This document shows positions 3,420 to 60,510 of a DNA stretch of 64,000 nucleotides, piece after piece. Each line of letters starts with the position of its first letter. The first letter of the stretch is position 1. The stretch is from Chitinophagaceae bacterium (lineage in GTDB: Bacteria > Bacteroidota > Bacteroidia > Chitinophagales > Chitinophagaceae), in NCBI GenBank assembly GCA_014879565.1, contig JACSRW010000024.1, forward strand, positions 1-64,000, read 5' to 3'. The position numbers were made by a program, and so were the translations under genes. A model generated the notes under the pieces. The model was not told the DNA's origin. It made no database searches and saw nothing but the letters and a program-made list of their open reading frames with translations.

Positions 3420-5861
3420 TTGTACGCTGAAATTATCATACCTGCCGCATTGCCGAAAAGCTACACCTGGTCGGTGCCGGAAGACATGCGGGAAAGCCTG
3501 CAGCCGGGATGCCGGGTGGAAGTGAACCTGGGTAAATCCAAAAAGTATGCAGGTCTGGTAAAAAGACTGCATGATGAAAAACCCGAGTTTTATGAAACCA
3601 AAGAAATCATCAGTCAGCTTGACAAAGAGCCGGTGGTATTCCCGGAGCAGCTCCGTTTATGGGAATGGCTCGCCGGTTATTATATGTGCAGTGAAGGGGA
3701 AGTAATGGCCGCGGCCCTGCCGGCGCATTTTAAATTATCCAGCGAAACCATCCTGGTCTTTAATGAAGAATACGGAGATGAATTCAGCGCGCTGGATCAT
3801 GACGAATATATCGTGGCGGAAGCCCTGTTGCTGAAAAAAGAACTGGGTTTATCAGAAGTACAGCAACTGCTGGACTCCTCCCATGTATACCCGGTGATCA
3901 ACCGGCTGATCCAGAAAAGGATCTGTTATGTCTGGGAAGCGCTCAAACAAACCTATGCACCGAAAAAAGAGGCTTATGTGCTGCTGAATCCGGTGTATAC
4001 TGAAGAGGAAAAACTGGCGGAACTGCTGAATACCTGGAACCGGGCTCCCAAACAAATGGAACTGCTTCTGAGTTACCTTCACCTCCTGAAAACAGAAGGA
4101 GAAGTAACGAAAGCCGCCCTGCTCAAAAAATCAGGCGCTTCGGATGCACAGTTAAAAGGGCTGACGGAAAAACAAATACTCCGGCTGGAGAAGAGAGAGG
4201 TAGACCGGATTAAATATCTTCCAAAAAATGTAAGCATAGATTTTTCATTGACGGAACTGCAGGAGAAAAAGCTGGATGAATGCCGGGTTAGACTGGCGGA
4301 AAAACCGGTCTGCCTGCTGCACGGAGTGACCTCCAGCGGAAAGACCAATATCTATATCCGCCTGATCGAGGAGTATATCCGGCAGGGCAAACAGGTGCTG
4401 TACCTGCTGCCGGAAATCGCGCTTACCTCCCAGGTGATACGCCGTTTGCAAAAACATTTTGGTGGTTATATTGGTATTTATCACTCCCGCTTTTCGCAGA
4501 ACGAGCGGGTTGAAATATGGAATAAAGTAAAAACAGGGGAACTGCGGGTCATCCTGGGTGCCCGTTCATCTGTTTTTCTTCCCTTTCACCAACTCGGTCT
4601 CGTGATCTGCGACGAAGAACATGACCCCTCCTTTAAACAACAGGAACCGGCCCCCCGGTACAATGGCCGCGATGCGGCCATTTACCTGGCTGCTTTGTTT
4701 GGCGCCAAAACCCTTCTCGGCAGCGGAACGCCCTCGCTGGAAAGTTATTTTAACGCGGTAACCGGTAAATACGGCCTGGTCGAATTACTCCAGCGTTTCG
4801 GTGACCTGCAGTTGCCTCCCATCCGTTTTGTGGATACCCGCAGCCTGGTACAGAAGGATAAAACAAGAATTATTCTTTCTCCCGCGCTGATATCTTCTGT
4901 GGAAGAGATCCTGGAACGGGGCAAACAGGTCATTCTTTTCCAGAACAGACGGGGATATGCGCCTTACCAGGTTTGCGCGGTCTGCGGCTGGATACCCCAG
5001 TGTAAGTACTGCGATGTGTCGCTGACCTATCATAAACTGAACAATAAACAGGTTTGTCATTATTGCGGAACTACTTATCCGCCGGTACATAGCTGTGCCG
5101 CCTGTGGCAGTGATAAATTCCTGCAGCGGAATTTTGGTACAGAAAAAATTGAAGAGCAGTTACAGGAAACCTTTCCCCGGGCCCGGGTGGCCCGGATGGA
5201 TATTGATACGGTCAAAGGGAAAAACGCCCACGACACCCTTATCAGGCAGTTTGAAGAAGGCCGGATTGATATCCTCGTAGGGACACAAATGGTGGTGAAA
5301 GGACTTGATTTTGATCATGTGGACCTCGTCGGTATCCTGGATGCCGACGGCCTCCTGCATTTTGCCGATTTCCGGGTCAATGAACGGGCCTTCCAGCTGA
5401 TGGAACAGGTAAGCGGCCGGGCTGGACGAAAGGAAGCCACCGGCACCGTTCTGGTTCAGACATCCCAGCCCGGGCACCCATTATTGCAGATTGTACAGCA
5501 ACACGATTACCGCGCTATGTATACGGAAGAAGTGATAAAAAGGAAAGAGTTTCACTATCCGCCGTTCACCCGGATTATCCAGCTGACATTCAAACATAAG
5601 TTTAAGGAGATTGTGGACAGGGCTTCGGTGCAGTTTGCGAACAGGCTGAAACCAGCATTTGGGACCTATCTCGTGGGACCCGCAGAGCCGGTAATTGGCC
5701 GGATCCGTAACCAGTACCTGATGGAACTGCTCATCAAACTACCCCGGGATGGCGCCCTGATCAACCGTTGTAAACGAGAAATCCTGGAGGAAACCGCTAT
5801 GCTTCATCAGGATAAATCCTTCCGGAGTGTGACGGTGGTGGCAGATGTGGATCCGGTGTAA
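3420..5861 (+). CDS. priA: Primosomal protein N' (PriA helicase)
   Basis: The replication-restart helicase that reloads DnaB at stalled forks. Visible parts in order: an N-terminal fork-binding domain (MYAEIIIPAALPKSY), a Walker A motif (GVTSSGKT, about 302-309), the DEEH box (about 397-400), a zinc-binding region with eight cysteines arranged as CxxC pairs (about 518-565), then helicase motifs ending in QVSGRAGR. The length of 813 aa is normal. The start appears to be TTG at 3420: the first in-frame ATG lies about 20 codons downstream and would remove the conserved MYAE start. Confidence 0.93.
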   Translation: MYAEIIIPAALPKSYTWSVPEDMRESLQPGCRVEVNLGKSKKYAGLVKRLHDEKPEFYETKEIISQLDKEPVVFPEQLRLWEWLAGYYMCSEGEVMAAALPAHFKLSSETILVFNEEYGDEFSALDHDEYIVAEALLLKKELGLSEVQQLLDSSHVYPVINRLIQKRICYVWEALKQTYAPKKEAYVLLNPVYTEEEKLAELLNTWNRAPKQMELLLSYLHLLKTEGEVTKAALLKKSGASDAQLKGLTEKQILRLEKREVDRIKYLPKNVSIDFSLTELQEKKLDECRVRLAEKPVCLLHGVTSSGKTNIYIRLIEEYIRQGKQVLYLLPEIALTSQVIRRLQKHFGGYIGIYHSRFSQNERVEIWNKVKTGELRVILGARSSVFLPFHQLGLVICDEEHDPSFKQQEPAPRYNGRDAAIYLAALFGAKTLLGSGTPSLESYFNAVTGKYGLVELLQRFGDLQLPPIRFVDTRSLVQKDKTRIILSPALISSVEEILERGKQVILFQNRRGYAPYQVCAVCGWIPQCKYCDVSLTYHKLNNKQVCHYCGTTYPPVHSCAACGSDKFLQRNFGTEKIEEQLQETFPRARVARMDIDTVKGKNAHDTLIRQFEEGRIDILVGTQMVVKGLDFDHVDLVGILDADGLLHFADFRVNERAFQLMEQVSGRAGRKEATGTVLVQTSQPGHPLLQIVQQHDYRAMYTEEVIKRKEFHYPPFTRIIQLTFKHKFKEIVDRASVQFANRLKPAFGTYLVGPAEPVIGRIRNQYLMELLIKLPRDGALINRCKREILEETAMLHQDKSFRSVTVVADVDPV

Positions 5862-60089: not shown

Positions 60090-60097
60090 TATATTTG
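60090..60097 (+). promoter_or_regulatory. Perfect TAnnTTTG box (TATATTTG)
   Basis: TATATTTG directly after the stop of the tail gene. A weak -33 (TGTG, 60067-60070) is at the 19-bp spacing. Transcription should begin near 60101-60104, exactly at the first strand of the long stem in the next feature. Confidence 0.6.
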
Positions 60098-60099
60098 CC

Positions 60100-60211
60100 C
60101 TGACGACACTCAGTTCTTATATTATTTTCCTCCCCCCTAGGAGTCGGGTGTTCCCGTAAGGGCCCCGGGCACGAGTGTCGTCAGCTCCTGGGGGGAGCCT
60201 AAATACCCCCC
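60100..60211 (+). ncRNA. Structured RNA element, pseudoknot/switch candidate
   Basis: A perfect 12-bp pairing joins CTGACGACACTC (60100-60111) with GAGTGTCGTCAG (60173-60184). The segment 60130-60143 inside that loop pairs with 60185-60197 outside it: 8 bp (CTCCCCCC/GGGGGGAG) plus 5 bp (AGGAG/CTCCT) around one bulge, a pseudoknot. CGGG-TGTT-CCCG (60145-60156) is an extra hairpin. G6 (60190-60195) can alternatively pair with C6 (60206-60211), just before ATG 60214. It may be a leader switch or a free RNA. Confidence 0.65.
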
Positions 60212-60213
60212 AA

Positions 60214-60510
60214 ATGACGACCGATAAGCCAGAACTGACCCCGGTACCAGATCTGCCCTGGTACGAATCATTACGATTATTTCTTGAACCATACACGCCC
60301 AGTTCCAGGCAGGAAGCCGATAAGGCGTTCACATCCACCGAGATTATCCGGGCTATCGAGGCCCACCATGGCGTTCCTCAGGGCATCGTCGGAAAAGAAA
60401 TCTACGTGTGGATGGCTCCGGAGGATTTTGTCAGAGCCATGAGGTATTTGGGATACCGGGAGGAAAATGTATCAGGCACTGAGCTGGAATGGCTTATGCG
60501 TAGAAAATAG
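60214..60510 (+). CDS. Small prophage protein after the structured RNA
   Basis: A 98-aa protein (MTTDKPELTPVPDLPWYESLRLF). The segment FTSTEIIRAIEAHHGVPQGIVGKEIYVWM suggests a small winged-helix or regulatory-type fold. ATG 60214 is 3 bases after the C6 run of the RNA element; an upstream GTG (60175) lies within the structure and is rejected. It is followed by promoter copy E. Confidence 0.55.
   Translation: MTTDKPELTPVPDLPWYESLRLFLEPYTPSSRQEADKAFTSTEIIRAIEAHHGVPQGIVGKEIYVWMAPEDFVRAMRYLGYREENVSGTELEWLMRRK

Follow-up and report, generated by a model that had tools for sequence, protein, structure and literature searches.

What might a strongly folded leader do when it separates a promoter box from the first start codon of a prophage operon? 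The question is raised by one locus in the window, which is the whole 64,000-nucleotide stretch of Chitinophagaceae DNA that was analysed. An initial annotation described two crossing helices at this locus, and the letters bear this out. Strands A and A' are perfect complements over 12 bp, and strands B and B' pair over 13 bp with a single bulged T at 60138 (Table 1). The two helices abut at 60184/60185 with zero bases between them, and the ATG follows immediately 3' of the leader at 60214. The minimum free energy (MFE) of 60098-60216 is -49.2, compared to -35.7 +/- 3.85 for 200 shuffles (z -3.5), of which one was as good. In addition, the box-anchored score for crossing helices is 59.5, while the maximum among 150 dinucleotide shuffles is 43.0. 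As explained below, this short prophage stretch probably encodes a folded leader that would act as a phage on/off switch of the general P1 c4 kind.

Table 1. Features of the leader and of the start of the first gene, in window coordinates
Feature	Position	Strand	Basis
TATATTTG, Bacteroidota -7 promoter box, predicted start ~60102	60090-60097	+	sequence; spacing from PMC6847099
Strand A (a1-like), 5' strand of the 12-bp stem	60100-60111	+	pairing, family comparison
AT-rich linker, A to B	60112-60129	+	sequence
Strand B, 5' closing strand of the c4-like domain	60130-60143	+	pairing, family comparison, domain fold
First hairpin (c4 P2-like), GTAA tetraloop 60156-60159	60145-60167	+	fold of domain alone
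Second hairpin (c4 P3-like), overlaps 5' part of A'	60168-60179	+	fold of domain alone
Strand A' (a'-like antisense strand); 60180-60183 unpaired in domain fold	60173-60184	+	pairing, domain fold
Strand B', 3' closing strand of the c4-like domain	60185-60197	+	pairing, family comparison
C6, can pair with G6 inside the A':A2 hairpin	60206-60211	+	folding; not a family feature
A2 (a2-like) ATGACGAC: start codon and second strand-A copy; 60215-60221 pair with 60177-60183	60214-60221	+	pairing tests
First gene, 98 aa, winged-helix-like small protein, no significant family	60214-60510	+	protein searches, structure model

A blastn search of the leader in phages returned just two short Arthrobacter matches and no useful DNA match in named phages, so relatives were sought through neighbouring genes (those for the upstream 586-aa protein, the 242-aa protein and a PLD-like protein), as well as through DNA patterns and two covariance models, R1 and R2. 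The PLD-like-protein neighbour search gave 14 viral loci; of these, 10 (9 distinct) carry the structure, and it was not seen in the remaining 4. Neither the RNA nor the small gene was found in the neighbouring-gene loci L026, L030, L031 and L032, where L032 has just 719 bases upstream and the box-based scan overlooks variant boxes, such as those of L022, L029 and L042. R1, built from four similar members, finds L006 (3e-6), L028 (4e-4) and, weakly, L043 (0.19) and L027 (0.81), all at the right places, and misses the window. R2 matches the window with 16.3 bits (E 0.94 in 238 kb, 0.009 in 2.4 kb) and reports none of L022, L029, L042 and L086. In whole-genome searches, R2 has matches in 5/396 genomes of the order at E <= 0.05 and in 7/394 of the family at E <= 0.1, with three genomes common to both; the window's own genome is missed in each. 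A late DNA-pattern search gave three known contigs and two false matches. The pattern matches L056 and L059 are GC-rich, lack member-like structure and were discarded as false, and a 22-base match in G188 was put down to chance, as a scan shows no such structure there. A scan of genome contigs gave one locus with a named host, Limnovirga soli; this is the same element as L007/L020, on a contig equal to G111, and the host belongs to the Chitinophagaceae, the same family as the window's genome.

The resulting 19 rows are the window, L002, L006, L008, L020, L021, L022, L023, L027, L028, L029, L042, L043, L053, L054, L055, L062, L063 and L086. When near-duplicates are merged (L029 with L042, L002 with the window, L055 with L008), these become 16 distinct members, window included. 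The members come mostly from Chitinophagaceae-type phages and have one architecture in very different sequences, placed between a TAnnTTTG-like box and a start codon. One of them, L086, is a named complete phage genome (MZ447863.1) in which the RNA is unannotated. Its recorded host is Microcystis, and it carries the TAnnTTTG box, the leader and the small protein (profile E 1.5e-11); the real host may be a Bacteroidota bacterium. Separately, genome G099 carries the RNA and small gene twice, on two contigs (L008/L045 and L055). The domain is nearly identical in these copies, which differ at an A/A' pair position, where strand A has C-T-A in one and C-C-A in the other, each matched in A'.

The box reads TAnnTTTG in 16/19 rows, TACTTTCG in L042/L029 and TAATATTG in L022, a count to be read with the fact that many rows came from scans or models that themselves include the box. 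Stem A:A' begins 2-5 bases 3' of the box in all 19. The initial annotation placed the start of transcription at the first base of the stem. In Flavobacterium johnsoniae the box spans -12 to -5 (accessible text of PMC6847099), and this spacing puts the start of the window two bases inside the stem instead. There is no TTG 17-23 bases 5' of the box in the window, and the same is true in 15/19 rows; the same text describes the F. johnsoniae -33 element as much less evident.

Helix A:A' is crossed by B:B' in 19/19 rows, with 0-2 bases between A' and B'. The crossing-helix score exceeds all 150 shuffles in 16/18 rows and is reached by 1/150 in L008 and 2/150 in L055. Counted from the junction in 17 rows, 120/136 positions in A:A' and 152/153 in B:B' are standard pairs, falling to 36-46% and 37-54%, respectively, when one side is slid by 1-3 bases. 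Part of this contrast is built in, as the coordinates were derived from the same sequences. The variety of pairs is not built in, and here 2-6 pair types occur per position. In a MAFFT alignment of the four similar members, seven A:A' pairs have changes in both partners, with a covariation score higher than in 500/500 shuffles, while there is no double change in B:B', which hardly varies there. Covariation, whose absence in homologous loci would have spoken against the initial annotation, is thus present among relatives. The reading as a regulatory leader or functional RNA is supported, as the architecture is kept with compensatory changes.

The initial annotation also proposed that the G6 run at 60190-60195 can switch from the crossing helix to C6 in front of the ATG. 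This pairing is possible but is not a feature of the family. The near relative L002 has GGGAG:CTCCC in its place, and B' pairs with its own start regions no better than with permuted ones (1568/20,000 permutations as good). The idea of a switch was right in spirit, but in place of G6:C6 the partner that recurs is a strand-A copy located at the start codon. In the window, G6:C6 belongs to a longer alternative, overlooked in the initial annotation, in which TGACGAC, the counterpart of a2, repeats strand A and pairs with A'. Elsewhere this copy, A2, reads ATGTCAACAGAG (L027), TGTCGAACCAAA (L053), CCTACAAAGTC (L063), GCCAACAAACAG (L043), GAACAGCCCGC (L022), GCGAATAC (L042) and TGCCAAACGCATC (L054).

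A2 was first spotted by eye and the initial test used hand-set A' lengths; the test was repeated with a fixed 12-base A' and the region from ATG-15 to +25. It covered 15 members, with the near-duplicates L029, L055 and L002 dropped and L086 not yet known. The pairing of A' with its own start region has a mean of -13.24 kcal/mol, compared to -7.63 +/- 0.77 when permuted, and 0/50,000 permutations were as good. A copy was called clear when the own pairing outscored those with all 14 other start regions and those of every other 12-mer from the same leader. By this measure A2 is individually clear in 8/15 members, window included, and not in the other seven (L006, L008, L020, L021, L023, L028, L062); none was noticed by eye in L086. 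In three of the clear cases, L043, L053 and L063, A2 lies in a different first gene, each without a score against the small-protein profile, and L054 is likewise absent from the report of that profile. Shared coding sequence therefore does not explain the copies. Elsewhere in the window, the longest match to a further A' target is 10 bases. As strand A recurs as A2, A' can pair either with A, giving the pseudoknot, or with A2, covering the AUG. This is the layout of a1, c4 a' and a2 in phage P1, whose record places a1 and b1 before c4, and a2 and b2 after it, ahead of icd.

Comparison with Rfam points in the same direction. At gathering scores, the whole window contains two tRNAs and nothing else. 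Below those scores, c4-2 (RF02944) is the one family that recurs at the leader site; the other low-score matches do not recur at the RNA in other members and were set aside. The c4-2 model matches the window (21.0 bits, E 0.034), L063 (26.8 bits, E 1e-3) and L022 (26.0 bits, E 1.7e-5 in its contig; the near copy L024 also matches), in each of the three spanning exactly B to B'. All member matches (21-27 bits) fall under the curated cut-off of 41 bits, and the other 13 of the 16 distinct members have no c4-2 match. Rfam c4 itself (RF01695), searched at E <= 10, was found neither in the window stretch nor in 11 short member loci.

As the c4-2 matches are below the cut-off and absent from 13 distinct members, B..B' was folded alone. 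In 18/18 rows the MFE structure has a closing stem of 9-16 bp and at least two hairpins, where the closing stem is a given, as the ends were chosen as B and B', and the remainder of the fold is not. Directly 5' of the 3' closing strand, 4-8 bases are unpaired in 15/18 rows (0 in L042 and L054, 1 in L043). A cloverleaf with this unpaired stretch appears in 0-3 of 200 shuffles per row, and the MFE z-scores run from -2.2 to -5.5. P1 c4 adopts this fold as well, with seven unpaired bases that perfectly complement the annotated a1 and a2. P1's own c4 has no match to the c4-2 model, and no clear counterpart of the P1 b' element was found by eye in the members. By itself, the 68-nt part 60130-60197 of the window is thus predicted to take the cloverleaf shape known from the antisense RNA c4 of P1, a feature that the initial annotation overlooked.

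Loci above the c4-2 cut-off served as a positive control. Of 198 genomes sampled from the phylum, three contain such loci (6, 4 and 3 matches), and all three belong to a single genus. Seven of the 10 fetched loci were measured, the exceptions being L078 and L084, a tandem pair with no ORF starting nearby, and the sub-threshold match L079. In these seven, the leader and start region share 8-15 bases, a length that is the largest of its row in 6/7 and a tie in L081, and a TAnnTTTG box lies upstream in 5/7 by pattern. In L076, L077, L080-L083 and L085, the c4-2 RNA is flanked by the leader on one side and, in loci with a listed ORF, by the start of a member of a 77-aa ORF family on the other. This protein has no Pfam match and no match in phages or plasmids.

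The c4 RNA of P1 is excised from a longer transcript and uses a' and b' to pair with target mRNAs (as described in part of PMC5320573; for P1 context see the portion available of PMC8201110). The reading that we favour, with fair though not strong confidence, treats the leader as an antisense RNA module of the c4 type that would control how the first gene is translated. Transcription would begin at strand A or a few bases from it. The 68-nt segment, which runs from B through two hairpins to A' and B', would form a c4-like cloverleaf presenting A'. Pairing of A' with strand A at the 5' end would give the pseudoknot and leave the AUG free, whereas pairing with A2 on the first-gene start codon would cover the AUG and presumably block translation. 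Strand A may then be an upstream competitor or a target like P1 a1, and, by analogy with P1 c4, the B..B' domain may be freed from the transcript and work in trans. In F. johnsoniae, initiation is tuned by structure around the start codon (excerpt of PMC6847099).

Predicted folds are consistent with two such states. In the pseudoknot state the three bases of the AUG are free, with probabilities of being unpaired of 0.98, 0.96 and 0.67. With A':A2 and G6:C6 formed, most of the AUG is in a stem (0.99, 0.0 and 0.0). The nested energies are -48.9 and -51.9 kcal/mol for the A:A' and A':A2 folds, respectively; A:A' with B and B' held open has -29.2 kcal/mol, and the B:B' duplex -25.1 kcal/mol, which together place the two states close to each other. 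The A':A2 fold becomes the MFE only when the sequence extends to 60240, not 60229, by a margin of 3 kcal/mol that contains no pseudoknot term.

The closeness of the pseudoknot and A':A2 states would also suit a switch or folding timer that works in cis only, where the pseudoknot forms first and the A':A2 hairpin later, with no separate antisense RNA and a convergent likeness to c4. Strand A is transcribed first and, in the nested model, growing fragments up to 60229 keep A:A', except for one ending at 60197, where B:B' wins. Such a switch would not need the c4 shape, nor the c4-2 register seen in three members, and we regard it as possible but the weaker candidate. Comparison of the sequences establishes the conserved architecture, the predicted cloverleaf and the A'-A2 complementarity in about half of the members. 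A bolder and rather doubtful extension of the antisense reading is that Chitinophagaceae phages use a family of c4-like immunity or timing RNAs, in which A, A' and A2 diversify together on a fixed fold so that each prophage's RNA recognises only its own kind. Unlike in P1, the upstream copy, acting as a pseudoknot, would then be a built-in off-switch for the repressor RNA.

The gene that follows the leader varies. The first ORF is the small protein in 13/17 rows and another in four (L043, L053, L054, L063); in L043 the small protein comes second after the RNA. The small protein has 67-111 aa and a winged-helix-like model (pLDDT 78.8, pTM 0.69). It has no significant PHROG or Pfam family, with HTH_33 at E 0.007 for L021 only, and Foldseek gave no significant match (best E 0.19). 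The constant neighbour of the RNA is the start codon. A leader at the transcript start, usually ahead of a winged-helix-like protein, could be a site for a phage or host protein at the operon 5' end, serving for example autoregulation by the first gene product or antitermination just after the promoter. This is improbable, as the leader is kept ahead of the four non-matching ORFs and such a site would give the match between A' and A2 no function; a site for antitermination was set aside. Quite improbable as well is a 5' end that does not switch and protects the mRNA by its stability, which would fit the predicted start a few bases from the stem in 19/19 rows and leaves A2 and the cloverleaf unexplained.

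The link to packaging suggested by the initial annotation is not supported. Terminase genes do lie within a few kb downstream in the window and many relatives, but in L021 the RNA and its gene are apart from, and downstream of, the terminase large-subunit gene. The identity of that ORF rests on its match to the window's terminase (32% identity, E 1e-65), as a PHROG search was empty. In addition, four members have other first ORFs, and in G050 the small gene is present, overlaps the stop of the gene upstream and is not preceded by the RNA. A packaging element, whether packaging RNA or cos/pac DNA site, was set aside as very unlikely, the crossing helices and start-codon copy being features at the level of RNA and not of a DNA site.

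Three further observations concern the neighbourhood. The sequence TGTCCTTT, often followed by a small hairpin, lies shortly 5' of the next gene (that of the 242-aa protein in the window) in 8/17 loci, at most 1200 bases after the first start codon: the window (60517), L002, L022, L023, L027, L028, L042 and L062. It is possibly a promoter, a cos/pac site or a regulatory site. In L020, the palindrome GTGATWWATCAC occurs three times right after the small gene (3858-3913) and is operator-like. Sub-threshold matches to Flavo-1 RNA (cut-off 42) are present on the strand opposite to the operon in L002 (7743-7811 minus, 32.5 bits) and L023 (8977-9040 minus, 25.9 bits).

Among known structured RNAs, H-type pseudoknot riboswitches occur near the start site, e.g. 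preQ1-II. The leader resembles these in its crossing helices, its inserted hairpin and its position just 5' of the start codon, and differs in lacking a conserved ligand-like core; a riboswitch was rejected, and none of the corresponding Rfam families gave a match to the window at E <= 10. HDV-like ribozymes have a topology with a catalytic linker between the 3' strands of two crossing helices. Here, merely 0-2 bases separate A' and B', no ribozyme model matched at E <= 10 in the window stretch, and this candidate was rejected too.

The c4-2 family, which reportedly stems from a 2017 paper, shares with the members the Bacteroidota setting, TAnnTTTG boxes, start-codon copies and the cloverleaf. 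Its hairpin with a 5'-side bulge and GNRA loop is also found in the window, L002, L022 and L027. The differences are that member matches score 21-27 bits against the cut-off of 41, that c4-2 precedes a different small gene (77 aa), and that it has multiple copies per genome (3 to 6 in three genomes).

P1/P7 c4 is the classic phage-immunity antisense RNA. Its order, a1b1 - c4 - a2b2 - icd/ant, has in common with the members a sense copy, an antisense cloverleaf and a sense copy at the next start, all on one transcript, with the unpaired a' just 5' of the 3' closing strand. The upstream target copy that corresponds to a1 is present throughout, as strand A pairs with A' in 19/19 rows. In contrast to P1/P7, the members are without a clear b' element, and their upstream copy, placed right at the predicted 5' end of the transcript, extends as far as the second hairpin strand, which gives the pseudoknot. 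They also have another downstream gene and a TAnnTTTG promoter, whereas P1 c4 is expressed from E. coli promoters and processed by RNase P (part of PMC5320573). The same source, in the part available, gives predicted c4 relatives in Proteobacteria. Among the matches listed for c4 antisense RNA, c4-2 and P1 pairing, the literature has no such RNA in Chitinophagaceae phages; it is not mentioned in the accessible sections of PMC2864571 or of the Flavobacterium psychrophilum transcriptome (PMC9723704). The comparison ties an unannotated leader family of Bacteroidota phages and Rfam c4-2 to the same sense - antisense - sense logic at the start codon. This yields predictions, base by base, of which strand silences which gene, and of which prophages should or should not silence each other.
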